A DNA stretch of 64,000 bases from Shinella daejeonensis (GTDB taxonomy: Bacteria; Pseudomonadota; Alphaproteobacteria; Rhizobiales; Rhizobiaceae), in contig NZ_JAHWXY010000001.1 in NCBI RefSeq assembly GCF_024281235.1, positions 1,178,001 through 1,242,000 on the forward strand. Direction: 5' to 3'. The notes beneath the pieces were generated by a model, which was given only the letters and a program-made list of their open reading frames with translations, had not been told where the DNA came from and made no database searches. Numbering within the stretch: position 1 is the first letter of the stretch; every line of letters starts with the position of its first letter. This document shows, in pieces, positions 28,003 to 48,803 of the stretch. The position numbers and the translations under genes were made by a program.

Positions 28003-28150
28003 CGGTTCCTCGCAAGCGTGTTTTCCTGGCGCGGAACATTGCTGCGGCTTGCGGCGGCTGACCAATTCAATTTGGGCAAAGGGTCATGCAAAAATCGCCT
28101 GACTCCTTATTTTACAAAGGCTTGGGCGGCAGACAGCGCGGGCGGGCGAG

Positions 28151-28591: not shown

Positions 28592-28690
28592 GGGGAACCC
28601 CGCGCCGTGGAAACTCCACCTGTCCGTCGCCGGCCGGTGACCGCCCCCACGGCGAGAGACGGTCCCACCGCGTGGCGGCGGATTTTCACC

Positions 28691-30364
28691 CTATCCGGTG
28701 ATGGCGCCTTCATCGGCGGGACGCGCCAGCGCCGCGAACTTGGCCAGCACGCCGCGCGTATAGCGCGGCGGCGGCGGCTCCCAGGCCGCGCGGCGACGGG
28801 CGATCTCCGCCGCGTCCACCTCAAGCTGCAACAGCAGCCGGTGCGCATCGATGGTGACGGTGTCGCCTTCCTCGACGAGGGCGATCGTGCCGCCGACATA
28901 GGCCTCCGGCGCGACATGGCCGACGACCATGCCCCAGGTGCCGCCGGAAAAGCGCCCGTCGGTGATGAGGCCGACGCTTTCGCCGAGGCCGCGACCAACG
29001 AGCGCCGAGGTCGGCGCCAGCATCTCCGGCATGCCCGGCCCGCCCCTTGGCCCGAGATAACGCAGCACCACCACGTCGCCGGGCCGGATACGGTCGGCAA
29101 GGATCGCCTCCATGGCGCTCTCCTCGTCGTCGAAGACCCGGGCCGGCCCGCTGATCACCGGGCTCTTCAGGCCGCTGATCTTGGCGACCGCGCCTTTTTC
29201 GGCGAGATTGCCCTTGAGGATGGCGAGATGGCCCTCGCGATAGATCGGTCGTGACATCGGCATGATGACATCCTGGTCGGCACGCGGCTCGGCCGGCACA
29301 TCGGCCAGTTCCTCGCCGAGCGTGCGGCCGGTGATGGTCAGGCAATCGCCGTGGATCAGCCCCGCCGTCAGCAGGATCTTCAGCACCTGCGGCACGCCGC
29401 CGGCGGCATGCAGGTCGACCGCCATGTATCGTCCCGAAGGTTTCAGGTCGCACAGCACCGGCACCTTGCGGCGCATGCGTTCGAAGTCGTCAAGCGTCCA
29501 GTCGATTTCTGCCGCATGCGCGATGGCGAGATAATGAAGCACCGCGTTGGTCGAGCCGCCGAGCGCCATGATCAGCGCCACCGCGTTTTCGATCGACTTG
29601 CGGGTGATGATGTCGCTCGGGCGGATATTCCGCTTCACCGCCTCGACGAGCACACGGCCGGACTCCGCGGCGCTGTCGCGTTTTTCCTGATCCGGGTTCG
29701 CCATCGTCGAGGAATAGAGAAGCGACATGCCGAGCGCCTCGAAGGAGGAACTCATGGTGTTGGCGGTATACATGCCGCCGCAGGAACCGGTCGAGGGACA
29801 GGCGTTCTGCTCGATGCCCGTGAAATCCTCTTCGCTCATGGTGCCGGCCATGAAAGCGCCGACCGCCTCGAAAGCCGAGACGATGGACAGGTCCTCTCCC
29901 TTCCAGCGGCCCGGGCGGATGGTTCCGCCATAGACGTAGATCGCCGGGGCGTTGGCGCGCAGGATGCCGATCATGCCGCCGGGCATGTTCTTGTCGCAGC
30001 CGCCGATCACCAGAACGCCGTCCATCCATTGGCCCTGAACGGAAACCTCGACGCAATCGGCGATAACCTCGCGCGAGACGAGGGAATATTTCATGCCCTC
30101 CGTACCCATCGACATGCCGTCCGAGATGGTCGGCGTGCCGAAGACCTGCGGATTGGCGCCGGCCGCCTTGATGGCGTCGACGGCCGCATCGGCCAGTGGC
30201 TGGAGACCGGCATTGCAGGGCGTGATGGTGGAATGACCGTTGGCTATGCCGATCATCGGCTTGTCGAAGTCGGCTTTCTCATAGCCAAGCGCATAATACA
30301 TGGCCCGGTTGGGCGACCGGGCTATTCCCTGGGTGATATGCTTTGAACGTTCGTTGAAGGGCAT
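28691..30364 (-). CDS. ilvD: Dihydroxy-acid dehydratase
   Basis: IlvD dehydrates 2,3-dihydroxy-3-methyl acids in branched-chain amino-acid synthesis. The 557-residue length is typical. Cluster cysteines occur in [16 protein letters not shown] and [16 protein letters not shown], and the C-terminus has the FSGGTWG phosphate-like loop. The ATG at 30364 ([19 protein letters not shown]) fits the family start; the frame extends further upstream with no homology. It is divergent from the molbindin gene across 227 bases. Confidence 0.93.
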
Positions 30365-30591
30365 GGAAAACCTCGACTGCGGGCGGGGGCCGATCGGCCA
30401 GCCCTTCAAGACTACCCCCCGGACGGAAAAACACAAAGAGATTTGCCGCCTGCCGAGCCTCTTCCGACGGACGGGAACCACCTTCGAAAAGCGAGACACT
30501 TTTGCACGAACGCGAGGGAGGAAGGCCGTGGCCGATCGACGGCCCGCCGTGCTATGGAGAAGGGGCGACCCATAGTGTTCAGGAGCAACGC

Positions 30592-31968: not shown

Positions 31969-33264
31969 TCAAACGGCCCGGCCGGGATCGATCGCATCGA
32001 AGAACTCCGTCAGGAAATCGGTTCCGGCAAGCGGCTCGCTGCCCGCCATGACCGCCATGGAAAAGCCCATGAGCGAGGAAGCGGCATTATGGGTCGTGAC
32101 ATCGGCGCGCAAATTCATGACCAGCGTCGGGCAGAGGAACAGCCCCAGCCGGACGACGCGCCGCCAGTCGACCGGCAACAGCGCCTGCCGGTCGAGTTCC
32201 TTCAGCAGCGGACGCCACATCTCCTCGGCCTTGACCTGGAGAAGGTCCCGCCGCACGGCGGTCGGCGACCACGAACTGGTGACCTCCAGCACACCGTCGC
32301 GCACCTGAGCCGTCGCATCGTAACGGTCGGCGGCGATGACCGGATCATAAAGCCAGAACGGATGCGCCAGAACATTGTGGAACGTCGTCTTCACTTCGGC
32401 GAGAAGCGTCGGAACATGCTCGCCGGCGAACGCCGGATCGAAGAAGGACAACGCCGCCCGGTCGCCGCCGTCGCTGAACCAGACATTCGCATTATGGGCG
32501 TCGCCATGGGCCGTGACGCCGCCGGCATCGGCCAGTCGCGCCGGTGCCAGCCGTTCATATGCCGCATCGAACAGGTCACCGACGCTGTCGCGATATTCGA
32601 TGCCATTGATGCGGAAGCGCAGGCGGGAGAATTCCGGCCAGTCGAGCGTCACGCCGGGAAAGGCGAACGTTCGATCGACATAGAAGCTGCCGAACCGCCC
32701 ACCGGGATAGGTCCCGTTTGCGGGATCGACCAGACGTTCGAAAAACAGGCGATGCACGGGTTCCGCCGCCACTTCGCCGGCCGTCACCGGATGCAGCGTC
32801 CGCAGATAGACCGCCAGAACCGCCCGGTTGAGGTCCCGCTCGGCGGCGACGGCCTTCGCCCGCAAGGCGGCGTCGTCTTCCATGTCGAGCACCCGCAGCA
32901 CATCGGAAAAGCGCGGATCGCGACGCCGGCGATAGACGAGGATCTGCTCGCCGGGAAGGGCCGACATCAAAACCGGCTGATCGACGGGCAGGCCCGCCTT
33001 CGCGAGGATATCGGCGCGATAATATTCGCCGCTCATCGCCTCCTCGCCCTCCTCCTGATGGAACTTGAAGAAGAATTCGCCATCGGCCGTATCGAAGAAG
33101 CCGTTGAGGGAATTGAGGCTGTACTGATCGTGGTTGATCTTCAGATCGCTTGCCTCGATCCGGAAAAGGTCCCGCAGCAGGTCCTTCAGAAGCCGTTCGG
33201 CGCTTCCGTCGCCATTTTTTGAACGTCGCCGGATCTCGGCGGTCCGGCTGGATACGACTGTCAT
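31969..33264 (-). CDS. Phosphotransferase-like protein (APH/choline-kinase fold)
   Basis: This 431-residue protein has the Brenner motif of aminoglycoside-phosphotransferase-like kinases, GGVTAHGDAHNANVWF (HGDxHxxN), and a downstream metal aspartate in LSFFDPAFAGEH. The N-terminal lobe (TADGEFFFKFHQ) has the likely ATP-lysine. The ATG at 33264 is preceded by GGGAG. No substrate can be named; the family includes small-molecule kinases for sugars, amino alcohols and drugs. It is alone, with a paired palindromic repeat upstream. Confidence 0.65.
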   Translation of the reverse strand: MTVVSSRTAEIRRRSKNGDGSAERLLKDLLRDLFRIEASDLKINHDQYSLNSLNGFFDTADGEFFFKFHQEEGEEAMSGEYYRADILAKAGLPVDQPVLMSALPGEQILVYRRRRDPRFSDVLRVLDMEDDAALRAKAVAAERDLNRAVLAVYLRTLHPVTAGEVAAEPVHRLFFERLVDPANGTYPGGRFGSFYVDRTFAFPGVTLDWPEFSRLRFRINGIEYRDSVGDLFDAAYERLAPARLADAGGVTAHGDAHNANVWFSDGGDRAALSFFDPAFAGEHVPTLLAEVKTTFHNVLAHPFWLYDPVIAADRYDATAQVRDGVLEVTSSWSPTAVRRDLLQVKAEEMWRPLLKELDRQALLPVDWRRVVRLGLFLCPTLVMNLRADVTTHNAASSLMGFSMAVMAGSEPLAGTDFLTEFFDAIDPGRAV

Positions 33265-33468: not shown

Positions 33469-34482
33469 CTATCCGCTAAATTCGACGATCGACTTGAGTT
33501 TGGCGGATTCTCCCCTGAGCAGGCGATCATAGGTTGCCGGAACGTCGTCCAGGCTGGCGATCGGCTCGCACAATTGCTCCAGCGCCGGCGACAGTTCGGG
33601 CAGGAGCGAGACCGCCTCCGCAAGCTCGTCGGTGAACGCATGGCAGCCGAGCAGGCCGGTCTCGCGCTCCACGAGAAGGTTGGGATCGAGGTCGAGGCGG
33701 CCATGGCTGATGCCGACCAGCGCGAGAAAGCCGCCGCCCGCCAGAAGGTTCAGCGCCGCCTCGATGGCCTGGACGCTGCCGGTCGCATCGATGGCGAACC
33801 GCAGGCGTCGCCCGGACAAGGCGGCCTCGACGGCACCGCCCGTCAGATTCACCGGCGCTCCCCCCGTCACCGTCCCGATCAGGTGCAGCCGCTCCTTGTT
33901 GAGGTCGGCAAGCAAGAGGGGGCCGTCGTGCATGCGGGAAAGGGCGAGCGCACAGAGCCCTCCGATGGTTCCGCAACCGACGATCAGCACCGGCTCTCCG
34001 CGGGGAAGCGCCAGACGGCGCACCGCATGCAAGGCGACGGCCAGCGGCTCGGCCATGGCCGCGACACGCGCGCCGACGGAAGGCGAATGGCGAAGGAGCA
34101 GCCGCGCCGGAAGCTGGACCTCTTCGGCAAAACCGCCATCGCAAACCTCGCCGACGAAGCCGAGTTTTTCACAGATGTTCGCCCGTCCGCTCGTGCAGGC
34201 CGGGCAGGCGCCGCAGCAGACGCGGGAATCGACAGCGACGGTGTCGCCGACATGGAGGCCGGAGACATCGTCCCCGACAGCGACGATCGTGCCGCAGAAT
34301 TCATGGCCGGCAACCGACGGGCGCCGGGTGATCCACTGGCCGGTCCGATAGTTGTGCAGGTCCGAGCCGCAGATCCCCGCCGCCCGCACCTTCAGGTTCA
34401 CGAACCCCGGCGGCGGCGCGGACGGAGGATCCACATCCTCCACCCTCAGGTCCAGCGGATCGTATAATCTGACCGCGCGCAT
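33469..34482 (-). CDS. Zinc-dependent alcohol dehydrogenase (MDR family)
   Basis: This 337-residue medium-chain dehydrogenase has the catalytic zinc site (GICGSDLHNY, AGHEFCGTIV), a structural zinc loop with four cysteines (RVCCGACPACTSGRANICEK) and a Rossmann turn (VLIVGCGTIGG). It oxidises an alcohol or polyol with NAD(P). The ATG at 34482 lies 4 bases after the stop of the HisD-like gene. It is the last gene of the seven-gene operon behind HutC-type operators. In dihydroxypropanesulfonate pathways a comparable dehydrogenase partners HpsN, but no sulfonate gene is here. Confidence 0.87.
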   Translation of the reverse strand: MRAVRLYDPLDLRVEDVDPPSAPPPGFVNLKVRAAGICGSDLHNYRTGQWITRRPSVAGHEFCGTIVAVGDDVSGLHVGDTVAVDSRVCCGACPACTSGRANICEKLGFVGEVCDGGFAEEVQLPARLLLRHSPSVGARVAAMAEPLAVALHAVRRLALPRGEPVLIVGCGTIGGLCALALSRMHDGPLLLADLNKERLHLIGTVTGGAPVNLTGGAVEAALSGRRLRFAIDATGSVQAIEAALNLLAGGGFLALVGISHGRLDLDPNLLVERETGLLGCHAFTDELAEAVSLLPELSPALEQLCEPIASLDDVPATYDRLLRGESAKLKSIVEFSG

Positions 34483-34486
34483 CGGC

Positions 34487-35815
34487 TCAGCCCTTTTTCC
34501 CGAGGTATTGCTCGCGAACCGGCGAAACGGCGTGAGCGTGAGAGGAAAATCCCTCGTAGACCGCCAGCCTGTGCGCATGGGCCGCGAACTGCGGATAGGC
34601 CGACTTCGTGACATAACCGATGGAACTGCGCTTCACGAAGTCGGTGACCGACAGCGGCCCATAGGTGCGCGCCCAGCGGCTGGTGGGAAGAACGGCGTTC
34701 GGCCCCAGCGCGAAATTGGCGATGCTGACCGGCGTATGCGGCCCCATCAGGATTTCCGCCGCCTCGGTGATATGGCCGAGATGGGCGAAAGGATCCTCCG
34801 ACAGGATTTCCAGATGCTCCGGCGCATAGGCATTGACGAAGGCGTAGCTTTCCTCGATCGACCCCGTGAGAACGATGCCGCCGCACGGGCCTGACAGAAC
34901 CGCCGAGGAAAAGGCGACGCGCTGCTCGCTCATCCGGGCCCAGTGCTCCGGCAGCGCCGCCAGCGCTTCCTCGGCGACCCGCCGGCTGTGCGTCACCAGA
35001 TAGGCCGAGGAATCCGGGCCATGCTCGGCCTCGATCAGGAGGTCGAGCGCGGCGAGCCCGCCGTGGACGGTGTCATCGGCGAAGATGACCGCTTCGGAGG
35101 GGCCGGCGGGCAGGCCCGTATCGATGATGCCGGCCAGTTCGCGCTTGGCCGCGACGACCCACGGGCTGCCCGGACCGACGATCTTCAGGGCCTGCCCGAT
35201 CGTTTCGGTTCCATAGGCGACGGCGGCGACCGCCTGCGCGCCGCCGACCTTGTAGACCGTCTCCACACCGGCAAGCCGGGCGGCCACCAGGGTGGCGGCA
35301 TCGACGGAGCCGTCGGGAGCAGGCGGCGTGACGATGGCGAGATTGGGCACGCCCGCCACCACGGCGGGAACGGAGGTCATCATCGTCACCGAGGGAAAGG
35401 AGCCCTTGCCGCGCGGGACATAGAGGGCCACCGAGGAAATCGGCGTGAACCGGTCTCCTGCAAACGCCCCGGGGCGGATTTCCTTCAGCCACATGGCTTC
35501 CGGCTTCTGTTCCTCATGAAAGCTGCGGATGTTGGCGATGCTGAACTCGATGGCCTCAACGACCTCGCGCTCCACCTTTCCGAAGGCCTCGTCGAACTCC
35601 GCCGGGGTGACCTTGAGGTTCTTTTCGGTGACATCCGCCTTGTCGAGATCGCGGCCGAAACGCGCGACAGCCGCGTCGCCTTCGGTCCTCACCGCCTCGA
35701 TGATCGGCCGGACCTTCTCGATGAAGCCGGAAATATCGGTTTCCGAACGCCGCAGGAGCGCCGCTTTTTCCGCTGCGCTCAACGTGCTGTATTCATGGAA
35801 GGAGACATGGGTCAT
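34487..35815 (-). CDS. Histidinol dehydrogenase-family protein with altered active site
   Basis: This 442-residue HisD homologue keeps the catalytic pair E333-H334 (AYAPEHLEIL) and H265 (EAEHGPDS). Compared with E. coli HisD it has E262 for zinc ligand Gln259, N367 for zinc ligand Asp360 (SIANFALG) and A374 for His367 (GPNAVLPT). It is therefore unlikely to be the biosynthetic enzyme. HpsN (sulfopropanediol 3-dehydrogenase) is a known member of this wider family. It lies within an ABC-transporter operon beside the hut genes, so its substrate may be an imported polyol, amino alcohol or imidazole alcohol. Confidence 0.82.
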   Translation of the reverse strand: MTHVSFHEYSTLSAAEKAALLRRSETDISGFIEKVRPIIEAVRTEGDAAVARFGRDLDKADVTEKNLKVTPAEFDEAFGKVEREVVEAIEFSIANIRSFHEEQKPEAMWLKEIRPGAFAGDRFTPISSVALYVPRGKGSFPSVTMMTSVPAVVAGVPNLAIVTPPAPDGSVDAATLVAARLAGVETVYKVGGAQAVAAVAYGTETIGQALKIVGPGSPWVVAAKRELAGIIDTGLPAGPSEAVIFADDTVHGGLAALDLLIEAEHGPDSSAYLVTHSRRVAEEALAALPEHWARMSEQRVAFSSAVLSGPCGGIVLTGSIEESYAFVNAYAPEHLEILSEDPFAHLGHITEAAEILMGPHTPVSIANFALGPNAVLPTSRWARTYGPLSVTDFVKRSSIGYVTKSAYPQFAAHAHRLAVYEGFSSHAHAVSPVREQYLGKKG

Positions 35816-35848: not shown

Positions 35849-36649
35849 TCACTTTGATTTCAGGAAGATGTCGAGCCCGACAAGCCGGTCCAGAAGCGCG
35901 ATCACGATTCCCGCGCTGACGATGAAGACGACCGAAACGGCGGCCAGATCGGGGGTGATGATCGACCGGATGTTGTTGTAGATCTGGACCGGCAGCGTGA
36001 CGTTTCGCGCGTCGACCAGCAGCATGCTCACCAGGAATTCGTTGAGCGCGAGAATGAACATCAGCAGGGAGCCGGTAATGACCCCCGGCATCACCGCCGG
36101 CAGCGTCACATAGAGGAACGTCTGAAGCGGCGGGGCGCCGCAATTGGCGGCGGCCAGTTCCAGGTCGGGGTTGAGGTTGCTGGCGCTGGCCGTCACCGCC
36201 CAGATCATGAACGGAATGTTGATGACGCTGCACGCCACGCCGACCGGCCAGAGCTGTCCGGCCAGTCCCATCTCCCCGAAGAACAGCATCATGCCGATAC
36301 CCTGGCTGATCAGCGGGATGGTGAACGGCAGAAGCAGGTAGATCTGGATCGAGTTGGCGAACCGGATCTTGTATTTCGTCAGGGCGATCGCTGCCAGCGT
36401 TCCGACCGGGATCGAGATCGCCGTGCAGATCGTCGCCACATAGAGGGAGCGCAGGAAGGCCTGCCGCAGCCCCGCCGCGCCGAAGATGGTGCCGTACCAT
36501 TTCAGGGAAAGACCTTCCGGCGGGAACGTGATGATGTTTCCAGCCGTGAAGGAGGCGCCCAGAACGACGATGGTCGGCGCCGACAGGATGACGATCGAGG
36601 CGATGACGAATGTCCAGATGATGATCGACTTCGAGCGGCTGCCGGTCAT
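35849..36649 (-). CDS. ABC transporter permease, PotC-like
   Basis: This 266-residue permease has six helices and the EAA loop ELAAANCGAPPLQTFLYVTLP, of the spermidine/putrescine (PotC) type. Its start overlaps the stop of the PotB-like gene by 4 bases, and HisD-like follows after 33 bases. The substrate is unknown; the family also carries opines, thiamine, amino-sulfonates and small polyols. Confidence 0.87.
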   Translation of the reverse strand: MTGSRSKSIIIWTFVIASIVILSAPTIVVLGASFTAGNIITFPPEGLSLKWYGTIFGAAGLRQAFLRSLYVATICTAISIPVGTLAAIALTKYKIRFANSIQIYLLLPFTIPLISQGIGMMLFFGEMGLAGQLWPVGVACSVINIPFMIWAVTASASNLNPDLELAAANCGAPPLQTFLYVTLPAVMPGVITGSLLMFILALNEFLVSMLLVDARNVTLPVQIYNNIRSIITPDLAAVSVVFIVSAGIVIALLDRLVGLDIFLKSK

Positions 36650-37590
36650 TTGCGCGCTCCCTTGATCGCCAGCGATCCGGTTCCAAACAGCCGGAATATG
36701 ATGCCGACCAGAATGGAACCGGCGATGACCAGCAGGATGGAAAGCGCCGATCCCAGCCCCTGGTCGGACGTGCGGAAGAACTGGTCGTAGATGACGTTCG
36801 ACATGAAGTCCTGCGACCCGCCGCCGAGCATCGCCGGAATGGCGAAATTGGTGAGCGACAGCGTCATGACCACCAGCCCGCCGGCGACGAGGCCGGGCCT
36901 GGCGAGCGGCAGCACCACATGGCGGAAGGTCCTGATCCAGTTGGCGCCGAGCGAATTCGCCGCCGCCTCGAGCTCCTCGGGTATCGCCGTCAGGGCCGGG
37001 GCGATCATCAGCACCGCGAAGGGAAGCATATATTGCACGAGGCCGAATATGACGGCCGAATAATTGTAGAGCAGCCGCACGGACGACAGGCCGAAAAGGC
37101 CGAGGAACTCGTTCACCAGTCCCTGGTTGCCCAGGATGATCAGCCAGCCGTAGGCGCGCACCACCTCGCCGATGAAGAACGGGAAGAACAGGGCGACGAG
37201 CAGGAATTTCCGCAGAGCGGGACTTTGCGTGCGCACCATCAGATAGGCGTAGGGCACCGCCACGACGAGCGTTATCGCCGTCACGATGAAGGAGGCGATG
37301 AAGCTTCTGGTGGCCACCGACTGGAAGAAATTCTCCGTCAGCGCCCGGCGATAATTGTCCAGCGTGTAGAAGTCGGACATCAGGAAGGTGTTGGTGTCGA
37401 GCACCCGGAAGCTGGAATCGAGCATCTCGACGAGACCGGCGATGAGGATCGCGACGAGCAGGACGACCGGCACCAGCATCGCATGGGGCAACCCCTTCGT
37501 GAACCGCCGGGGCCAGGCTGTCTCGACAACGCGTTCAAGAACATCCAGCACTCTCCAGTGCCACGGGTAGGCGGAACGGGGCGGTTTCAT
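36646..37590 (-). CDS. ABC transporter permease, PotB-like
   Basis: This 314-residue permease has a long N-terminal segment, then about six helices and the EAA loop ELEAAANSLGANWIRTFRHV. The ATG at 37590 has GAAGGAA upstream. It follows the binding-protein gene after a 192-base gap containing a GC hairpin and partners the PotC-like subunit. Confidence 0.87.
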   Translation of the reverse strand: MKPPRSAYPWHWRVLDVLERVVETAWPRRFTKGLPHAMLVPVVLLVAILIAGLVEMLDSSFRVLDTNTFLMSDFYTLDNYRRALTENFFQSVATRSFIASFIVTAITLVVAVPYAYLMVRTQSPALRKFLLVALFFPFFIGEVVRAYGWLIILGNQGLVNEFLGLFGLSSVRLLYNYSAVIFGLVQYMLPFAVLMIAPALTAIPEELEAAANSLGANWIRTFRHVVLPLARPGLVAGGLVVMTLSLTNFAIPAMLGGGSQDFMSNVIYDQFFRTSDQGLGSALSILLVIAGSILVGIIFRLFGTGSLAIKGARK

Positions 37591-37782: not shown

Positions 37783-38898
37783 TCATCCTTGCATGATTTC
37801 CTTGAATTTCGAGAACCAGACGCTCTCGTTTTCCACCTGCACCTTGGAGGAGATCCGGATCAGATGCTTGAAATCCTCCTCCGTGGTCGGATAGGCCGGA
37901 TCGTTCACCAGATCCTCGGGCGGGGTCAGGCCCGGCACCACGCCCGGCAATCCGAGACCGTCGAGCCAGACCTGCTGGGCCTGCTTGGTCAGGGCATGGT
38001 TGATATATTGCTTGGCCCAGTAGAGTTCGTTCTCCGGCAGGCCCTTCGGAATCCACAGGCCGTCGGTATCGAATTTCGCGCCTTCCTCGGGCACCACCCA
38101 GTCAAGCTCGATGCCGTTCTTCTTGGCTTCGCGAACGTTGGTCGAGATGGTGCAGGCCGCATCGATCTCGCCCTTCTGGAACCAGGTGGTGAAATCCGGG
38201 TCCTCGCCGAGCAGCGGCTGCTGCTGCTTGACCTTCGCGATGAAGTCCCAGGCCGGCTGCATGTTGCCCGGAATATCCTCGAGCGTGCCGCCGCCGGCGA
38301 CCTGCGCGGGGAAATGGAAGCCGATGCCGTCGTTGTAAAGGGCGATGCGGCCCTTCAGCTTCGGATCGAGCAGGTCCTTCCAGGACGTCGGCGGGCCGTC
38401 CGGGAAGGCCGACGGGCGATAGGCCAGCACATAGACATAGCCGTAGGTATTGACGATCGGATAGCCGTCGAGACCGACCGGCTTGGCAAGATCGGTCGTG
38501 TCCTTGAGGTTCGGCAGATCCGAAAGATCCTCGGTCACGCCGCGCAGCGCCGACTTCGTGGCGTTGGTGGTGGTGTCCCAGTTGACATGGATGGGCGGCA
38601 TGCGATTTTGCGCGACGGCCGCCCAGATCTTCGGCTGAATCTCGTTGTCCTCGGTCAGATCGTGACGGATGGCGATGCCGGTCAACTCGGTGAAGCTGTC
38701 GGAGACGCCCGCCTTGAGGCTGTCGACCCAGCTGCCGCCCCAGGCGCGGACAATGATCTCGGCCGGCTTTTCCGGCTCCTGCGCGAAGGCGCGCGCGGCG
38801 CCCAGCGGAGACAGGGCGACCGTCGCCCCGGCGGCGGCGATCGATCCCAGCACCGAACGGCGTCGAAGCGGAATGGAGAGAAATTTCTCGTCTGACAT
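37783..38898 (-). CDS. ABC transporter substrate-binding protein, PotD-like
   Basis: This 371-residue periplasmic binding protein of family 1/PotD type has a twin-arginine-like leader (IPLRRRSVLGSIAAAGATVA, cleaved near AFA-QEP). Fold landmarks are IIVRAWGGSWVDSL, PIVNTYGYVYVLAYRPSAF and FTTWFQKGEIDAACTIS. It lies 29 bases after the ATPase gene. The ligand cannot be read from sequence. Confidence 0.87.
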   Translation of the reverse strand: MSDEKFLSIPLRRRSVLGSIAAAGATVALSPLGAARAFAQEPEKPAEIIVRAWGGSWVDSLKAGVSDSFTELTGIAIRHDLTEDNEIQPKIWAAVAQNRMPPIHVNWDTTTNATKSALRGVTEDLSDLPNLKDTTDLAKPVGLDGYPIVNTYGYVYVLAYRPSAFPDGPPTSWKDLLDPKLKGRIALYNDGIGFHFPAQVAGGGTLEDIPGNMQPAWDFIAKVKQQQPLLGEDPDFTTWFQKGEIDAACTISTNVREAKKNGIELDWVVPEEGAKFDTDGLWIPKGLPENELYWAKQYINHALTKQAQQVWLDGLGLPGVVPGLTPPEDLVNDPAYPTTEEDFKHLIRISSKVQVENESVWFSKFKEIMQG

Positions 38899-38927: not shown

Positions 38928-40064
38928 CTAAAAGACATGCATATCTTTCGAATTCCAGCCAAGCTGAATGCGCGCACCCGGCTGGAATTGCGTATGAGCG
39001 GCGGGATCGTGATCGAAAACCCGAAGCGATGCTTCGGCAAGCTGCGGCACCGTGATCTCGTAGACGATCCTTTCGCCTTCGAAGATCGTGTCGGCGATGA
39101 CCCCTTCGACGACGATTTCAAACCTGTCCGGCGTTTCACCGCCCGTCACGATACGGATCTGCTCGGCCCGGATCGCGGCCGAACACTGCGCCCCCTCCGC
39201 CAGTTGCGGCGCCGAGCCGCCGGCGATCCCGCGCAAATCCTTGCCGCCGCTGCGGAACGCCACGACCCCGCCGTCGACGCCCGTCACGATACCATGCACG
39301 AAATTGGTGACGCCGATAAAATTGGCGACGAAGGCGTTTTCCGGCTTCCGGTAGGCGAGGATCGGCTGGGCTTTCTGCTGGATCACCCCGTCGTTCATCA
39401 CGATGACCTCATCCGACACCACCAGAGCCTCGCGCTGGTCGTGCGTCACATTGATGGTGGTGACCCCGAGTTCCTTCTGGATACGGCGGAATTCGAGCTG
39501 CATTTCCTCCCGCAACTTCACATCCAGAGCGGCGAGCGGTTCGTCGAGCAGAAGAAGGTCCGGTTCGAAGACCAGGGCTCTCGCGATGGCGACGCGCTGT
39601 TGCTGCCCGCCCGAAAGCGCGTCGATCCGCCGGCCGCCGTATCCGCCGAGCTTCACCAGATCGAGATAGCGCTCCACCTGGTCGGCGATCGTCCGGGCGT
39701 CGCGCCGGCGCATCTTGAGCGGGAAGGCGATATTCTGGGCGGCGGTCATATGCGGAAAGAGCGCCAGCCTCTGGAACACCATGCCGATGGCCCGGCGATG
39801 GGCGGGAACGGCGTTCACCGGCTCTCCATTGATGAAGATTTCGCCGGTCGTCGGCTCTCCGAACCCGGCGATGAGACGCAGCAAAGTGGTCTTGCCCGAC
39901 CCCGAAGGCCCCAGAATCGTCAGGAACTTTCCCTTCGGAAGATCGAAGGACGCATCTTTGACGGCATCGAAATCACCGTATCGCATCCCGACGTTGCGCA
40001 CCGAAACGGCGATGGTCGGATCGGCGTCTGCGGGCTCGCGATCAACGGACGAAAGAGTCATCAA
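38928..40064 (-). CDS. ABC transporter ATP-binding protein, PotA-like
   Basis: This 378-residue ATPase has Walker A GPSGSGKTTLLRL, signature LSGGQQQRVAIARAL, Walker B LLLDEPLAALD and a C-terminal TOBE regulatory domain (about 290-370). It energises the PotBC-like permeases. A HutC-type palindrome (40153-40170) lies 89 bases upstream in the 232-base gap that separates it from the SDR gene, so it may have its own promoter. Confidence 0.9.
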   Translation of the reverse strand: MMTLSSVDREPADADPTIAVSVRNVGMRYGDFDAVKDASFDLPKGKFLTILGPSGSGKTTLLRLIAGFGEPTTGEIFINGEPVNAVPAHRRAIGMVFQRLALFPHMTAAQNIAFPLKMRRRDARTIADQVERYLDLVKLGGYGGRRIDALSGGQQQRVAIARALVFEPDLLLLDEPLAALDVKLREEMQLEFRRIQKELGVTTINVTHDQREALVVSDEVIVMNDGVIQQKAQPILAYRKPENAFVANFIGVTNFVHGIVTGVDGGVVAFRSGGKDLRGIAGGSAPQLAEGAQCSAAIRAEQIRIVTGGETPDRFEIVVEGVIADTIFEGERIVYEITVPQLAEASLRVFDHDPAAHTQFQPGARIQLGWNSKDMHVF

Positions 40065-40152: not shown

Positions 40153-40170
40153 ATGTATAGACATATACAT
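40153..40170. promoter_or_regulatory. HutC-type operator upstream of the PotA-like gene
   Basis: Perfect 7-base arms ATGTATA (40153-40159) and TATACAT (40164-40170) flank GACA. The site contains TGTATAGACA, the same core as at 41121-41130 (reverse) and one base from TGTATATACA in the hutF/hutI region. Confidence 0.6.
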
Positions 40171-40296
40171 GTCGAAGCGTCACTCTTTCTTGGGCATTTG
40201 CCGCAGGTGCGCAAGTATCGCGCAAGTGCAAAACGCCCGCCTCAGGCAATATCCACCATCTATATGCGCCGCCATCGCCCATTCCCCTTCCATCGA

Positions 40297-41067
40297 TCAG
40301 ATCGAAGCGAGAAAGCCGCCGTCGACGGGAATGCAGTGGCCGGTGACATAGGCCGAGGCATCGCTGCACAGGAACACCACTGCGCCGCCGATATCGTCCT
40401 CGCGCCCGAACCGCCCTTGCGGGATCCTGTCGAGCATGCGGGACTGCCAGCCGGCATCCTCGTAGAAACCCTCCGTCATCGCCGTGCGGAAATATCCGGG
40501 CGCAATCGCATTGACGCGGATGCCTGACGGCGCCCATTCAGCGGCAAGCGCCCGCGTCATCCCGAGCAGGCCGGATTTCGAGGATGTGTAGGCGACTGCG
40601 GTCGGGATGCCGACGAAGGACGAGAGCGAGCACAGATTGACGATGCTGCCGCCGGCTTTTTGCCGGGCCATGTCGCGCGCAACCGCCTGCGACCAGAAGA
40701 ACGCCCCCTTCAGATTGGTGTCGACGATAGAGTCCCAAAGCGCCTCATCGACATCCGTCGACGGGGCCACATGCTCGAAGCCCGCATTATTGACGAGGAT
40801 GTCGATTTTTCCGCATTTTTCCGAAAAAGCGTCGATCGTCGGCGCGATGGAGGCGTGGTCGCGAACGTCCTGAGCGGCGGCAAAGCAGGGCCGGCCCGCA
40901 CGCTCGACCTTCTCCCGGGTTTCCTCAAGCGCCGACAGCGATCTGGCCGTCACGCAGACCTGCGCGCCCGCCTGGGCGAGCGCCTGCGCGATGGCCTGTC
41001 CGAGCCCGCGACTTGCGCCCGTAACAATCGCCGTCTTCCCGTCGAGACTAAAGACAGATGCACTCAT
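40297..41067 (-). CDS. Short-chain dehydrogenase/reductase
   Basis: This 256-residue SDR has the cofactor motif TGASRGLG (residues 16-23), NNAG (103-106) and the catalytic Y160/K164 (YTSSK). It is likely an NAD(P)-dependent alcohol or polyol dehydrogenase. The ATG at 41067 has GGAGGA upstream. It is the first gene of the ABC/HisD-like operon, 50 bases behind a large inverted repeat with HutC-type half-sites. Confidence 0.87.
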   Translation of the reverse strand: MSASVFSLDGKTAIVTGASRGLGQAIAQALAQAGAQVCVTARSLSALEETREKVERAGRPCFAAAQDVRDHASIAPTIDAFSEKCGKIDILVNNAGFEHVAPSTDVDEALWDSIVDTNLKGAFFWSQAVARDMARQKAGGSIVNLCSLSSFVGIPTAVAYTSSKSGLLGMTRALAAEWAPSGIRVNAIAPGYFRTAMTEGFYEDAGWQSRMLDRIPQGRFGREDDIGGAVVFLCSDASAYVTGHCIPVDGGFLASI

Positions 41068-41116
41068 CCCGGTCCTCCAACCCTCTGTCCTGCGACCAGT
41101 CAAACACCTTTCCACA

Positions 41117-41161
41117 TTCATGTCTATACATATTTACCACATTAATAAGTATAGACATGAA
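41117..41161. promoter_or_regulatory. HutC-type inverted repeat upstream of SDR operon
   Basis: Perfect 13-base arms TTCATGTCTATAC (41117-41129) and its reverse complement (41149-41161) are separated by 19 bases. The left arm plus the next base holds TGTCTATACA, the complement of TGTATAGACA. It lies between hutC and the SDR gene, 50-94 bases before the SDR start, as expected for a GntR-family repressor site. Confidence 0.7.
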
Positions 41162-41275
41162 TACGCGGACGGTGATTTTGACCTGTGACCCGCGCGAAGG
41201 ACGGAAGCCCTCCATGACGGATCGACCGCTGCCTATCAGAGACGCGCCGACCCGTATACCGCCTTATGACGCCGC

Positions 41276-42019
41276 TCACGCGGACGATGCCGGCGTGAAC
41301 CTTGCGACGATGGCGTGCTTTTCCGCCGGATAGGTGAAACGGGCGAAGGTGACGGCTCCCTGGTCGTCCCAGGTGCGGCGCTGCACCACCAGACAGGGCG
41401 CCTGCTCGACGACATCGAGATGATCGGCAAGCTCCCGATCGGCCGCGACCGCATAGATCTTATGTTCGGCCGTGCTCCAGGGCACCTGCATCCGCAGCCA
41501 CTGGCCGGGAGCCATGGCATGAAAATCCGCCTCCGCCGCCGTGGGGACGACGTCCAGATTGACGAGGCGATATTCGTAGCAGAACGGCGTGTCTCCGGCA
41601 TGATGGACGCAGGCGATTTCCAGGATGTTCGCCTTCTTGCTGAGACCGAAGGACGCCAGATCCTCCGCCGTCGACGTCCGCACCGACTGCGCCAGCACGA
41701 CGAAGCGGTAATCCCGCTTGAGGGACCGGACCTCCGCCTCGATATCGTGAATTTCGAGGATCGCGGACTGGACCTGCGGCTGGGCGACGAAGCTGCCGGA
41801 CTTCTTGCGCCGCTCGATCAGGCCGGCGCTTGCCAGCCGGGTCAGGACCTTGTTCACGGTCATGCGGGACACATTGTAGGATTTCGCCAGTTCCACCTCG
41901 AAGGGAAGCCGGAAGCCCGGCGGCCACTCTCCCGATACGATGTTCTTCTCGATATCGCCGAGAATTTTCTGATGGAGTGTCGACCGGGCCGACGTCTTGG
42001 ATGTCATCTTCTGGTCCAT
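41276..42019 (-). CDS. hutC: Histidine utilisation repressor, GntR family
   Basis: This 247-residue GntR protein has an N-terminal winged helix (LHQKILGDIEKNIVSGEWPP, then SYNVSRMTVNKVLTRLASAG) and a C-terminal UTRA effector domain (about 90-240), as in HutC, which is released from DNA by urocanate. It lies 46 bases after hutF on the same strand. The ATG at 42019 is the most likely start, though the ribosome site is weak. TGTATA-type palindromes in front of hutI/hutF and of the next operon are its likely targets. Confidence 0.88.
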   Translation of the reverse strand: MDQKMTSKTSARSTLHQKILGDIEKNIVSGEWPPGFRLPFEVELAKSYNVSRMTVNKVLTRLASAGLIERRKKSGSFVAQPQVQSAILEIHDIEAEVRSLKRDYRFVVLAQSVRTSTAEDLASFGLSKKANILEIACVHHAGDTPFCYEYRLVNLDVVPTAAEADFHAMAPGQWLRMQVPWSTAEHKIYAVAADRELADHLDVVEQAPCLVVQRRTWDDQGAVTFARFTYPAEKHAIVARFTPASSA

Positions 42020-42065
42020 GCGCTTGGCGCGGGAGACCGAATCTCCTCCGCACCGGATGGTCGTA

Positions 42066-43418
42066 TCATGAAATTCGCTGACGCAAAGCGTGCATGCTGG
42101 CCGCAAAATGCGTGAAGATCCGCTCACGATCAACATGGCGCCCGTTGCGGACGCGCATTTGCCCGCGCACCCATACGGCATCGACACCCACGCCGCCACC
42201 GAAAATCCACTGGTCCAGAATGGCTTCGACGGGAAGATAGGGAACGGCGGACACATCAAGCGCGACGAAATCCGCATCCCGCCCGACGGCGAGATGCCCG
42301 CCGCCGCCGACCGACCGCGCGCCGCCCCGCACCGCCTCGTCGAACAGGCGATCCCCGGTCGAGCGGCCGGGATGCGCGATGACATTGCGCGAGCGGGTGG
42401 CAAGCCTCTGGGCATATTCCAGCTGGCGCAGTTCCTGCGCGGCCGAGATCAGGACGTTGGAATCGGACCCGATGCCGAAATTGCCGCCGGATTCGAGGAA
42501 AAGCGAAGCGGGAAAGATACCGTCCCCGAGATTGGCTTCCGTGATGGGGCAAAGCCCGGCGACCACGCCGCATCGCGCCATTCCGGCCGTTTCGGTCTCG
42601 CTCATGTGGGTCGCGTGGATAAATGTCCAGCCGGCGTCGACGGGCGCGTTGTCCAGCAGCCACTGAACCGGCCGCGCGCCCGACCAGGCAAGGCAATCCT
42701 CGACCTCAAGGACCTGTTCGGCCACATGGATATGCACCGGCCCGCCCTTCGCCAGCGGCACGATCTCGGCCAGTTCGGAGGGCGTCACGGCCCTGAGGCT
42801 ATGCGGCGCGACCCCGAGCCGACCGCCGGGCAGGCCCGCCACCAGCGTCTCGCAACGCTCCATCAGCCTTGCAAAATCATCGCGTGAATTGATGAACCGC
42901 CGCTGCCCCTCGCCGGGAGCCGCACCGCCGAAAGTGGAATGCGCATAGAAGACCGGAAGCAGCGTCAGCGAAATGCCGGCCGTCTGCGAGGCGGCGGCGA
43001 TGCGTTCGGCCATTTCGGCGAGATTGTCGTAGGGCGCCCCGTTTCTGTCGTGATGCAGGTAATGGAACTCCCCCACCCGGGTGAAGCCCGCCTCCAGCAT
43101 CTCCATATAGAGCTGCGCGGCGACGGCCTCGATCTGCGGCGGATCGAAATTGAGCCCGAAGTCATACATGACCTTTCGCCAGCTCCAGAAATTGTCGTGC
43201 GCCGGCCCGCGAACCTCGGCGAGCCCGGCCATCGCCCGCTGAAAGGCATGGCTGTGCAGATTATCGAGCCCGGGAACGACGATTTCGTGCCGCTCGTCTC
43301 CCGGACCGGGCGCAACGCCGCTGTCGATCGCGCAGATGCGCTCTCCGTCCAGGGTGATGCGGACCCCTTCGGCCCAGCCGGCTTCCAGAAGGGCCGCCCT
43401 TGCATAAACGCTCGTCAA
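42066..43418 (-). CDS. hutF: Formimidoylglutamate deiminase
   Basis: HutF converts N-formimidoyl-L-glutamate to N-formyl-L-glutamate and ammonia in the five-step histidine pathway. The 450-residue protein has the metal HxH in [21 protein letters not shown], and the catalytic/metal region GSDSNVLIS. The start is a TTG at 43418 ([17 protein letters not shown]), preceded by a strong GGGAGG; the longer open frame upstream is unlike the family. It is divergent from hutI and upstream of hutC. Confidence 0.92.
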
Positions 43419-43486
43419 ATCCGCCTCCCATGCCCCAGCGCCCGCATACCGGGCCGATCGAAGTTTCCTGTTGCCAACCACAGTAT

Positions 43487-43498
43487 ATGTATATACAT
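43487..43498. promoter_or_regulatory. HutC operator in hutF/hutI divergent region
   Basis: The perfect 12-base palindrome ATGTATATACAT lies between hutF (start 43418) and hutI (start 43540). The symmetric TGTATATACA core agrees with the TGTA-N2-TACA-like sites used by HutC proteins in other proteobacteria. It can control both transcription directions. Confidence 0.75.
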
Positions 43499-43539: not shown

Positions 43540-44769
43540 ATGTCTTCGCTTTCGCGGACCATTTTCCGCAACGCCCGGATCGCCACCCTTGCGACGGAAA
43601 AATCCGGGCTGGGCGTCGTCGAGGACGGGGCCATCGTGGTGAGCGGCGGAAAGATCGACTATGCCGGACCGCAGGCCGCCCTGACGGCGGTGATCGAAGC
43701 GGATGCAGACGTCGTCGACCTCGAAGGCCGCTGGGTGACGCCCGGGCTGATCGACTGCCACACGCACATCGTCCATGGCGGAAACCGCGCACGCGAATTC
43801 GAGATGCGCCTCGAAGGTGCGACCTATGAGGAGATCGCGCGGGCGGGCGGCGGCATCGTTTCCTCGGTCACGGCGACGAATGCGCTTTCCGTCGAGGGCC
43901 TGATGGAAACCGCCCTGCCCCGTCTCGACACGCTGCTTGCCGAAGGCGTCACGACGCTCGAGGTGAAGTCCGGCTACGGTCTTTCCATCGAAGGCGAACT
44001 GAACATGCTGCGGGCGGCGCGGCGGCTCGAAAAGGTCCGGCCGGTCCGCATCGTCACCTCCTATCTGGCGGCCCATTCGACGCCTGTCGAATACAAGGGG
44101 CGCAACGCCGATTACCTCGCCGACGTCGTCGTTCCGGGGCTGCGCCGCGCCCATGCGGAAGGGCTGGTCGATGCCGTCGACGGATTTTGCGAGAAGATCG
44201 CCTTTTCCACCGGCGAGATCGCCCGGGTCTTCGAGGCCGCGCACGATCTCGGCCTGCCCGTCAAGCTTCACGCCGAGCAGCTGTCGAACCTCGGCGGCGC
44301 AAAGCTTGCCGCCGCCCATGGCGCACTCTCGGCCGATCACCTGGAATATCTCGATACGGAGGGCGTTGCCGCCATGGCCGCGGCCGGCACGGTCGCCATC
44401 ATCCTGCCCGGCGCGTTCTACGCCCTCGGCGAGACACGCAAGCCGCCTGTCGCGTCCCTCCGCGCGGCCGGCGTCCCTATTGCAGTCGCCACGGACTGCA
44501 ATCCCGGCACCTCGCCGCTCACCTCGCTGCTGCTGGCGATGAACATGGGCGCGACCCTGTTCGGGCTTACCGTCGAGGAATGTATCGCCGGCGCGACACG
44601 GGAAGGCGCCCGCGCGCTCGGCCTTCTCGGACAGGCCGGCACGATCGAGGAAGGCAAGTCCGCCGACCTTGCGGTCTGGGATGTCGGCAGCCTCGCGGAA
44701 CTCGTCTATCGCATCGGCTTCAATCCGCTCCACGCCTGCTACTTCAAAGGACAAAGGATCGCCCCATGA
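43540..44769 (+). CDS. hutI: Imidazolonepropionase
   Basis: HutI hydrolyses imidazolone-5-propionate to formimidoylglutamate. This 409-residue amidohydrolase shows the metal motif [20 protein letters not shown], and [10 protein letters not shown] near residue 320. The ATG at 43540 follows GGGGAGG. The stop overlaps the hutH start (ATGA). It is the first gene of the hutI-hutH-hutG-hutU operon. Confidence 0.95.
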
Positions 44770-46301
44770 CCGTCACCCTTGTTCCCGGCCGCGTTACGCT
44801 CTCGCAGCTGATGTCCGTTTATTGGAACGGTGAGGCGGCAATCCTCGACCGGGCGGCGGACGCCGATATCGCGCGGGCCGCTGCCCGGATCGCCGAGATC
44901 GCCGGGGGCGATGCCCCGGTCTACGGCATCAACACCGGCTTCGGCAAACTCGCCTCGATCCGCATCGACGGCGCGGACGTGGCCACCCTGCAACGCAACC
45001 TGATCCTCTCCCATTGCTGCGGTGTGGGAGAGCCGCTACCGGAAAATATCGTACGTCTGATGATGGCGCTGAAGCTGATCTCCCTTGGCCGGGGCGCCTC
45101 CGGGGTGCGGACGGAACTCGTGCGACTGATCGAGGCCATGCTCGAAAGAGGCGTCACGCCGGTCGTTCCCGCGAAGGGCTCCGTCGGCGCGTCGGGCGAC
45201 CTTGCGCCGCTGGCCCATTTCGCCGCCGTCATGATGGGCGAGGGCGAGGCGTTTCACGCCGGCAAACGGCTTGCCGGGCGCGCGGCGCTGGAACAGGCGG
45301 GGCTTTCCCCGATCGTGCTGGCCGCCAAGGAGGGGCTCGCGCTGATCAACGGCACCCAGACCTCGACCGCGCTGGCCCTTGCCGGGCTGTTCCGGGCGCA
45401 TCGCGCCGCGCAGGCGGCCCTCGTCACGGGCGCGCTTTCCACCGATGCGGCCATGGGCTCTTCCGCCCCTTTCCATGCCGATATCCACGCGTTGCGCGGC
45501 CACAGGGGCCAGATCGATGCCGGTGCGGCGCTGCGCAAGCTGCTGGACGGCTCGGAAATCCGCGTCAGCCATATCGAAGGCGACGAGCGGGTGCAGGATC
45601 CCTATTGCATCCGCTGCCAGCCGCAGGTCGACGGCGCCTGCCTCGATCTCCTGCGCACCGTCGCCCGCACGCTGGAAATCGAGGCTAATGCGGTCACCGA
45701 CAATCCGCTGGTGCTGTCCGACGGCTCGGTGGTCTCCGGCGGCAATTTCCACGCCGAGCCGGTCGCCTTCGCCGCCGATCAGATCGCGCTGGCGATCTGC
45801 GAGATCGGGGCGATCGCCCAGCGCCGCATCGCGCTTCTGGTCGATCCGGCGCTCTCCTACGGCCTGCCGGCCTTCCTGTCGAAGCGGCCGGGGCTGAACT
45901 CTGGCCTGATGATCGCCGAGGTGACCTCCGCCGCGCTGATGTCGGAAAACAAGCAGATGGCCCATCCGGCCTCCGTCGATTCGACGCCGACCTCAGCCAA
46001 TCAGGAAGATCACGTCTCCATGGCCTGCCATGGCGCGCGCCGGCTGCTGCCGATGACCGAAAACCTCTTCACGATCCTCGGCATCGAGGCGCTCTGCGCG
46101 GTGCAGGGGGTGGAGCTGCGCGCACCGCTTGAAACCGGCCCGGAACTGCGCAGCGCCGCCGCCGTCCTGCGCAAGGTGGTGCCGACGCTGGAGGACGACC
46201 GCTACATGGCGGGCGACCTTGCCGCCGCCGCAGGCCTCATCGCCGACGGCACGCTCGCCGGTGCGGTGTCCGACGGCATTTTGCCCGCACTGGAGACCTG
46301 A
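44766..46301 (+). CDS. hutH: Histidine ammonia-lyase
   Basis: HutH deaminates L-histidine to urocanate. The 511-residue protein carries the MIO-forming A142-S143-G144 triad in [15 protein letters not shown], with Y53 in [10 protein letters not shown]. Its length is typical. It overlaps hutI by 4 bases, and hutG follows one base after its stop. Confidence 0.96.
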
Positions 46302-46302
46302 G

Positions 46303-47130
46303 ATGCGCGTCTTCGAAGTCCATCGGGGCGCATCGCCCGTCATTCTGGCGTTTCCGCACGGCGGAACCGATATTCCCCCGGACATCTGGGAACGGCTCGA
46401 CGACAACGGCCGGCAGCGCGCGGATACCGACTGGCATATCCACCGGCTCTATGACGGCCTGCTTGAAGACGCCACCACCGTCCAGGCGACATTCCACCGC
46501 TACGTCATCGACGCGAACCGGGATCCGGCCGGCACAAGCCTCTATCCCGGACAGAACACCACCGGCCTCGTCCCCGAGACGGATTTCGACGGCAGGGCGA
46601 TCTGGAAGGAGGGACAACGTCCCGATGCGGCCGACATCGCGTTCCGGCTGGAGCGGTTCCATGCGCCCTATCATGCCGCGCTTCTGGCCGAAATCGAGCG
46701 CGTGAAGGCGATCCACGGCGTGGCCATCCTCTATGACTGCCATTCGATCCGCTCGCATATTCCCTTCCTGTTCGACGGCAGGCTGCCGGATTTCAGCATC
46801 GGCACCGACAGCGGCCGGACATGCGATCCGGCCATCGAAGAGGCGACCATGGCCGCCGCCGCAACGGCCGAAGGTTACGACAGCGTGCTGAACGGCCGCT
46901 TCAAGGGAGGCTGGACCACACGCCACTACGCCAATCCGCAACACGGCGTGCACGCCATCCAGATGGAGCTTGCGCAATCGACCCATCTTGAAAGCGAGGC
47001 CCCGCCGTTTGCCTACGACCCGGCAAGGGCGGACCGGCTCCGTCGTCATCTCGGGGAAATCCTGAGGCGGCTGGAACGCCTCGCCTCGACGCTGAACCGC
47101 AACGATCGTGCAAAGGGGGATCGCTCATGA
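46303..47130 (+). CDS. hutG: N-formylglutamate deformylase
   Basis: HutG hydrolyses N-formyl-L-glutamate to glutamate and formate, the last step after HutF. This 275-residue protein has the N-formylglutamate amidohydrolase landmarks [29 protein letters not shown] and [16 protein letters not shown]. The presence of HutF plus this HutG defines the five-step (pathway II) route. It overlaps hutU by 4 bases. Confidence 0.93.
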
Positions 47131-48803
47131 CAGCCAATCCACGCCACAACAGTCGCGAAATCCGCGCGCCGCGCGGCGACAGGCTCAATGCGAAAAGCTG
47201 GATGACCGAGGCGCCGCTTCGCATGCTCATGAACAACCTCGATCCGGACGTGGCCGAAAACCCGCACGAACTGGTCGTCTATGGCGGCATCGGGCGGGCG
47301 GCGCGATCCTGGGCCGACTTCGACGCCATCGTCGCGACGCTGAAGGATCTGGAGGAGGACGAAACGCTTCTCGTGCAGTCCGGCAAGCCGGTCGGCGTGT
47401 TCCGCACGCATCGGGACGCGCCGCGCGTCCTGATCGCCAATTCGAACCTGGTGCCGCACTGGGCCACCTGGGAGCATTTCAACGAACTCGACCGCAAGGG
47501 GCTCGCCATGTACGGCCAGATGACGGCCGGCTCGTGGATCTATATCGGCTCGCAAGGCATCGTGCAGGGTACCTATGAAACCTTCGTCGAGGCTGGCCGC
47601 CAGCATTATGGCGGCGATCTCACGGGCAAATGGGTGCTGACGGCCGGGCTTGGCGGCATGGGCGGCGCCCAGCCGCTGGCCGCCGCCATGGCCGGCGCAT
47701 GCTGCCTCGCGGTCGAATGCAATCCCCAATCGATCGATTTCCGCCTGCGCACGCGTTATCTCGACGCCCGGGCGGAAACGCTGGACGAGGCGCTGGAACT
47801 GATCGGCAGATGGACCGCCGCCGGCGAGGCGAAATCGGTCGGCCTTCTCGGCAACGCCGCCGAAATCCTGCCGGAGATGGTGCGCCGCGGCATTCGCCCC
47901 GACATGGTGACCGACCAGACCTCGGCGCACGACCCCATCAACGGCTACCTGCCGAAGGGCTGGACCATGGCGGAATGGAAGGAGAAGCGCGAAAGCGACC
48001 CGAAGACGGTCGAGAAGGAAGCCCGCGCCTCGATGCGGAAACATGTCGAGGCGATGATCGCCTTCAAGGACAAGGGCATCCCGACCTTCGACTACGGCAA
48101 CAATATCCGCCAGGTCGCCAGGGAGGAGGGACTGGAAAACGCCTTTTCCTTCCCCGGTTTCGTGCCCGCCTATATCCGCCCGCTCTTCTGCCGCGGCATC
48201 GGCCCCTTCCGCTGGGCCGCGCTCTCCGGCGACCCGGAGGATATCTACAAGACCGACGCCCGGGTGAAGGAACTCCTGCCCGACAACAAGCACCTGCACA
48301 ACTGGCTGGACATGGCGCGCGAGCGCATCGCCTTCCAGGGGCTTCCCGCGCGCATCTGCTGGGTGGGGCTCGGCGATCGCCACCGCCTCGGCCTCGCCTT
48401 CAACGAAATGGTGCGCAAGGGGGAACTGAAAGCGCCGGTGGTCATCGGCCGTGACCATCTCGATTCCGGCTCCGTCGCCTCGCCGAACCGCGAGACGGAG
48501 GCGATGCGGGACGGTTCCGACGCGGTATCGGACTGGCCGCTGCTCAACGCCCTGCTCAATACCGCCTCCGGCGCGACCTGGGTTTCGCTCCACCACGGCG
48601 GCGGGGTGGGCATGGGCTTCTCCCAGCACGCAGGCGTCGTCATCTGCTGCGACGGCTCCGAGGCGGCGGACACCCGCATCGCCCGCGTCTTGTGGAACGA
48701 TCCGGCGACCGGCGTCATGCGCCACGCCGACGCCGGCTATGAGACGGCGCTCGATTGCGCCCGAGAAAAGGACCTGCGCCTGCCGGCGATCCTCGGAAAC
48801 TGA
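47127..48803 (+). CDS. hutU: Urocanate hydratase
   Basis: HutU converts urocanate to imidazolone propionate using tightly bound NAD. The 558-residue protein has the family sequence throughout ([68 protein letters not shown]). The cysteine in the [20 protein letters not shown] region is the conserved active-site cysteine. It is the last gene of the operon and is followed by a hairpin. Confidence 0.96.

Follow-up and report, generated by a model that had tools for sequence, protein, structure and literature searches.

HutC-type operators before a conserved transport and dehydrogenase module beside the hut locus of Shinella daejeonensis

We analyzed a 64,000-nucleotide stretch of the Shinella daejeonensis genome (contig NZ_JAHWXY010000001.1, positions 1,178,001 to 1,242,000), called the window below, in which the histidine utilization (hut) locus lies next to a group of transporter and dehydrogenase genes. 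This group, running from a short-chain dehydrogenase/reductase (SDR) gene to a kinase-like gene, continues the hutF-hutC strand and is a conserved module of Hyphomicrobiales. HutC-type control of the module is strongly supported by the palindromes in its promoter regions. With a probability of about 0.6, we propose that it is HutC-controlled and channels an alcohol of the imidazole type towards histidine or urocanate; entry of its product into the Hut pathway is likely.

Operators in the window and in related loci

Three palindromes with the same core had been predicted around hutC, and all were found where they had been claimed. The palindrome TGTATATACA (43488-43497, assigned to neither strand) lies between the divergent genes hutF and hutI. 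The second, TGTCTATACA (41121-41130, plus strand), lies about 54 bp 5′ of the SDR gene within a perfect inverted repeat with 14-base arms (41116-41129 and 41149-41162), the mirror arm of which gives an imperfect second operator with one mismatch (41147-41158, minus strand). The third, TGTATAGACA in plus-strand reading (40154-40163, minus strand), is located between the SDR gene and a PotA-like gene, about 90 bp before the latter. The hut site matches TGTA-N2-TACA exactly; in each module site only one half does, the other half reading GACA.

We searched all 37 contigs of the genome (4.66 Mb) for the pattern TGTMTATACA, which takes in TGTATAGACA when read on the opposite strand, and it occurred at three places only. 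All of them were in this cluster, within 3.4 kb around hutC. The same pattern written backwards, our control, gave one match per strand. Thus, the total number of matches is unremarkable, and the improbable part is their clustering. Allowing at most one mismatch to the 12-mer ATGTMTATACAT, we found eight matches in the genome, seven in the cluster and one elsewhere, compared with five for the control.

A scan with the HisD-like protein of the module (HisDL) gave 133 relatives, and the loci of the best 80 (79-87% identity) were kept. They came from Rhizobium, Sinorhizobium, Mesorhizobium, Brucella/Ochrobactrum, Devosia, Labrys, Aureimonas and others, and comprised 1.61 Mb. Five were dropped from operator scoring for having no upstream stretch or no SDR gene. 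Among the 75 scorable loci, 61 had an exact core site 5′ of the SDR gene and 46 had one between the SDR gene and the next gene. The other 16 sites comprised nine at hut promoters (in eight cases the hutF-hutI interval and in one the hutH-hutC interval), six upstream of a dimethylformamidase-like (DMFA2-like) gene and one before PotA in a truncated contig. Over the 80 loci, the core matched 125 times versus twice for the reversed pattern, and TGTATAGACA occurred 105 times, compared with a mean of 0.68 and a maximum of 13 for 200 shuffled 10-mers. Where the exact site was missing at a module position, seven loci (L139-L143, L146 and L152) had a one-mismatch site instead. One or two sites were present at conserved positions in families as far apart as Devosiaceae, Brucellaceae and Xanthobacteraceae. 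The original prediction had placed the operon under HutC control through these operators and had named their loss from relatives that keep the operon as the result that would overturn it. The sites were kept in most of these relatives, and the claim was borne out at the level of sequence.

The core was also found outside these loci. It lies between hutF and hutI of three genomes of the same genus; R. leguminosarum and Klebsiella have TGTATATACA in their annotated hut loci, and Acinetobacter has it in an unannotated locus that encodes a HutC homolog. It was not found in three plasmid loci with HutC homologs (L133, L137 and L138), none of which is a plain hut operon. Other proteins annotated as HutC were seen in L137 and L138, with hydantoinase/oxoprolinase and hutH in Agrobacterium vitis and with UbiD/UbiX on pSymA of S. 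meliloti. Additional TGTATATACA palindromes occurred away from hutU and the module in four genomes (G189, G246, G064 and G127). In one locus (L123, 4400-4720), the SDR gene and a hutH-like gene (62% identity) are divergently oriented, and both TGTATATACA and TGTATAGACA lie between them.

Gene content, repressors and the link to hut

All genes of the module are on the minus strand. The SDR (40297-41067) is similar to KduD and gluconate dehydrogenase, with 4j2h as the nearest solved chain (366.1 bits). It is followed by a PotA-like ATP-binding cassette (ABC) ATPase (38928-40061), a PotD-like solute-binding protein of the SBP_bac_8 family (37783-38898), which is 78-90% identical to 30 aligned relatives, and PotB-like (36646-37590) and PotC-like (35849-36649) permeases. 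Next come HisDL (34487-35815; 423.6 bits with TIGR00069, cut-off 243.8), which has exchanged metal ligands at E262 and N367, and a zinc alcohol dehydrogenase of the medium-chain dehydrogenase/reductase (MDR) type (33469-34482), which resembles threonine and idonate dehydrogenases. These seven genes agree with the operon as originally described, which had overlooked an eighth gene at 31969-33255, encoding a probable small-molecule kinase of the APH type. We counted it as a module gene because its homologs come after the dehydrogenases in relatives. Further downstream on the same strand, a class IV aminotransferase and an IlvD/Edd-type dehydratase are encoded at 27139-30499.

Upstream of the module on the minus strand are hutC (41276-42007) and hutF, encoding formimidoylglutamate deiminase (42066-43424, start codon approximate; 712 bits with NF006683, cut-off 654). 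Across the hut operator, hutI, hutH (from 44766), hutG (from 46303) and hutU (from 47127) occupy 43540-48803 on the plus strand, all above their profile cut-offs. Compared with three hut loci of the same genus (L174-L176), the identity was 50-53% for HutC, 61-62% for HutF and 64-65% for HutI, and reached 80-81% for HutH and 88-89% for HutU. Given the lower values of the first three, the hutC-hutF-hutI side and the module may differ in origin from the rest of the hut locus.

We tabulated the gene content of 85 sources, that is, the 80 loci, four added plasmid loci and the window. HisDL was present in 85, the zinc dehydrogenase in 81, the SDR in 80, the APH-like protein in 57 and PotD in 54. Less frequent were a HisC-like aminotransferase (27), a TauA-like transporter (25), a hydroxyacid oxidase (24) and a DMFA2-like protein (13). 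A HutC of one type, here called M-type, was found in 63 sources and one of another, H-type, in 12. In some copies with a TauABC-type transporter, a dimethylformamidase beta-like protein (PF20254 in one member) stands behind the same operator (L052, L054-L056, L064 and L065, near 17400-19500). Such a protein also adjoins a second, more distant HisD-like clade (L158, L163, L164, L166, L167, L169, L170 and L173).

The window's HutC scored 285.2 bits with TIGR02018 (cut-off 220) and was the only protein in the genome above the HutC cut-off. It belongs to the hutF-linked rhizobial clade (H-type). A tree of 82 HutC-type proteins had two sides with 100/100 support, although the program flagged long branches. 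The H-type side contained the window's HutC, the hutF-linked genes of Devosia, Ciceribacter and others, and R. leguminosarum hutC; the M-type side contained 62 module-borne rows and the gammaproteobacterial HutC. A HutC-family regulator flanked 70 of the 80 copies (M-type only in 60, H-type only in seven, both in three). The operator core was the same with either type, which suggests that one repressor can take the place of the other.

The association with hut also recurs outside the window. Hut genes were present in the fetched flank of 11 of the 80 loci (L053, L061, L062, L068, L090, L093, L103, L109, L120, L122 and L123, the last by its hutH-like gene only). A further 20 regions included seven with hut genes; three of these had been picked for their nearness to hutU, and three rest on a hutF-like fragment at the edge (43-52% identity). 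A Devosia locus (L103) has the order of the window, hutI and then hutF-hutC-SDR-PotABCD-HisD-like-MDR-kinase. Among 297 genomes of the family, hutU was found in all 43 carriers of an orthologous HisD-like gene (at least 72% identity) and in 204 of the 254 others (P = 2.7e-4, uncorrected for kinship and genome size). In a tolC mutant of S. meliloti, hisC3, SMa0391-0396, hisD2 and the GntR gene SMa0402 were down about 8-24-fold, and hutU, hutG and hutH were down 8-12-fold (PMC2912261). From gene order and names, we infer that these hisC3/SMa0391-0402 genes are one of our 80 loci (L036). The data are then consistent with co-regulation of the module and hut. SMa0392 is also a target of the small RNAs AbcR1/2 (PMC8844928).

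Several observations weigh against control of the module by HutC and its connection to Hut. The exact site upstream of the SDR gene was missing in 14 of the 75 scorable loci and the second site in 29, and one half-site of the module operators is GACA where the footprinted palindrome has TACA. Genome-wide counts in the 43 carriers were only modestly above the control (90 + 96 vs 67 + 53); therefore, our argument rests on the position of the sites and not on their number. Palindromes far from hut and the module were among the matches listed for several carrier genomes. Ten of the 80 copies, some of them on short contigs, had no HutC in the flank, and most relatives carry the M-type regulator instead of the window's H-type HutC. 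Moreover, 69 of the 80 copies were not seen beside hut. Because 247 of the 297 family genomes have hutU, the phylogenetic profile is significant yet weak. In the HisD-like clade at 53-59% identity, only 1 of 16 regions was linked to hut and 3 of 16 had the operator. An ortholog of HisDL was not found in four sampled genomes of the same genus, and the three hut loci inspected there have the operator between hutF and hutI and no module behind hutC. Finally, the changes in the tolC mutant may come from nitrogen control (NtrC) instead.

The probable substrate and rival explanations

The metal ligands of HisDL were read against those reported for HpsN and HisD (PMC11382572). Canonical enzymes have Gln-His-Asp-His, whereas HisDL has Glu-His-Asn-His, and Ala replaces the His found in the SNHV stretch of canonical enzymes; all three exchanges were found in 85 of 85 sources. 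The Gln to Glu and Asp to Asn exchanges also held in all further module members and more distant members tabulated, in which the SNHV position is Ala, Cys or His. The exchanges bear on the original idea of a feeder route into Hut that imports, for example, histidinol. In one form of such a route, HisDL would be a catabolic histidinol dehydrogenase making histidine directly. The score of HisDL above the HisD family cut-off, its retained catalytic Glu-His pair and two His ligands (85 of 85) and the adjacent hut genes would fit this form. However, two ligands are exchanged and a conserved His is lost, such a route would have no use for the SDR, MDR and kinase, and a canonical hisD that keeps Gln-His-Asp-His and the SNHV His is present elsewhere in the genome (532 bits). 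Our literature searches also gave no histidinol assay for this subfamily. Histidinol is thus weakened as a substrate, and a histidinol route seems quite improbable. The feeder route is otherwise plausible and partly supported, and a link to Hut is backed by the recurring hut neighborhood and by the HutC-family regulators that flank most copies.

The module might instead catabolize a non-imidazole compound, such as the sulfonate 2,3-dihydroxypropane-1-sulfonate (DHPS) or another three-carbon diol, and owe its regulation to a recruited HutC paralog. An SDR, a zinc MDR and a HisD-like enzyme also make up the trio HpsO/HpsP/HpsN (PMC11131964, PMC11382572), the M-type regulator forms a separate clade, and the alternative transporter of many Rhizobium copies scored 151 bits with the SsuA sulfonate-binding family in one member, under the cut-off of 163.5. 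On the other hand, the HpsN motif G-R-Y-A/S-H with its sulfonate-binding His was not found in HisDL, which had GKGSF or GKGAF in 85 of 85 sources, and DHPS was rejected as a substrate on this ground. Solved HpsO ranked only 20th for the SDR (161.9 vs 366.1 bits). Chain 8wwd, which we take to be HpsP from its neighboring entry code, ranked 16th for the MDR. Nor would a non-imidazole compound explain the hut linkage in several lineages or the hutF-linked type of HutC in the window, Devosia and others. We regard this explanation as unlikely, but as one to be taken seriously. Finally, the sites might belong to hut and hutC only, with the module as a passenger and the shared sequence as a functionless ancestral duplicate. 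The four same-genus genomes without the module and the lineages without an exact site at it would agree with this. It is nevertheless hardly credible, considering the conserved site positions in distant families, the near absence of background sites in the loci and the one-mismatch sites at the same positions in the seven loci without exact ones.

We therefore return to a HutC-controlled module acting on an imidazole-type alcohol. The eight-gene unit would be a catabolic module repressed by a HutC-family regulator at two promoters, one before the SDR gene and one before the transporter genes. In the window strain, the repressor would be the hutF-linked HutC itself. Pseudomonas HutC has the footprint TGTA-N2-TACA, and its binding is relieved by urocanate (PMC12977541). 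By likeness to the Pseudomonas hut promoters, HutC would sit on the module sites and be released as urocanate rises, and we infer control by histidine for the window's HutC. The ABC transporter would import a small polar compound. The SDR and the zinc alcohol dehydrogenase would interconvert a secondary alcohol and a ketone, probably for both stereoisomers, and HisDL would oxidize the neighboring primary alcohol to a carboxylate by four electrons, as HisD and HpsN do. HpsO, HpsP and HpsN combine two stereospecific 2-dehydrogenases with an enzyme that removes four electrons from a primary alcohol next to a hydroxyl bound to the metal (PMC11131964), and by analogy the substrate should have the form X-CH2-CH(OH or NH2)-CH2OH. 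Imidazole is favored as X by the HutC control, by the hut neighborhood and by the fact that a third of the relatives have HisC-type aminotransferases. The compound would most likely be imidazole-bearing, for example imidazolyl-propanediol or an imidazole-lactate-type alcohol, and the product would enter Hut as histidine or urocanate. Where relatives also encode an alpha-hydroxyacid oxidase and aminotransferases of the HisC or AAT type, as some do, these could complete the conversion to an amino acid.

Polyamine transport was rejected, since all four PotABCD-like subunits missed the curated cut-offs (PotA 325.9 vs 355.6 for the potA subfamily, PotD 19.4 vs 582, PotB 153.2 vs 348 and PotC 104.9 vs 326). 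The structure model of the PotD-like protein was poor (predicted local distance difference test, pLDDT, 49.4). Relatives have a transporter of the PotABCD type or, in many Rhizobium, of the TauABC/NMT1 type. The assignment of the eighth protein as an APH-type small-molecule kinase is probable. Its motif HGDAHNAN, which fits the catalytic motif HGDxHxxN of APH-type kinases, was invariant in 34 aligned members. Its PF01636 score was 23.2 bits at a cut-off of 23.2, and two relatives scored below the cut-off. The model had a pLDDT of 87.8, and the Foldseek matches listed were kinases of the APH superfamily (best E 6e-06), with low template modeling (TM) scores by query (0.27-0.43).

A wider proposal is that many Hyphomicrobiales living in soil or with plants import an imidazole polyol or alcohol and oxidize it to histidine or urocanate through a ligand-exchanged HisD subfamily, with a dedicated second HutC lineage that shares the hut operators and two repressors interchangeable in evolution. 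We offer it tentatively and doubt that it holds in full; compounds of the imidazolyl-propanediol, imidazole-acetol or imidazole-lactate type stay among the candidates. A real feeder route would carry a textbook amino-acid regulon beyond histidine itself to an upstream nutrient, probably from soil or the surroundings of roots. On symbiotic megaplasmids, it would indicate a function for genes that now bear the annotations hisD2, hisC3 and polyamine transporter. HisDL would become a subfamily of HisD whose metal site is new, and this would help to tell which genes are wrongly annotated as histidinol dehydrogenase.

Comparison with known systems

Among the open-licence papers listed by our searches on the module and on the catabolism of histidinol or related imidazoles, we recognized none that described the module. 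HutXYZ and HisXYZ have been predicted as members of the HutC regulon in Rhizobiales (Leyn et al. 2016, PMC5343134). In the main text of that paper, "histidinol" and "potA" each occur 0 times, and we saw no mention of a HisD-like/SDR/MDR module. Histidinol dehydrogenase HisD shares its family and the catalytic Glu-His pair with HisDL, which differs in the two exchanged ligands, the lost SNHV His and its place in an uptake operon. HpsN, HpsO and HpsP represent the same three superfamilies beside a transporter and a regulator, whereas the module has neither the HpsN motif nor the Gln and Asp ligands, and its regulator and transporter are different. The polyamine importers PotABCD have the ABC architecture and fold family of the module transporter, but all four subunits of the latter score under the curated cut-offs. 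The HutC regulons of Proteobacteria (PMC5343134, PMC12977541) resemble the module in control, with a HutC-family repressor, operators of the TGTATATACA type and ABC transporters in the regulon; the difference is that in most copies of the module a second type of HutC sits within the module itself.

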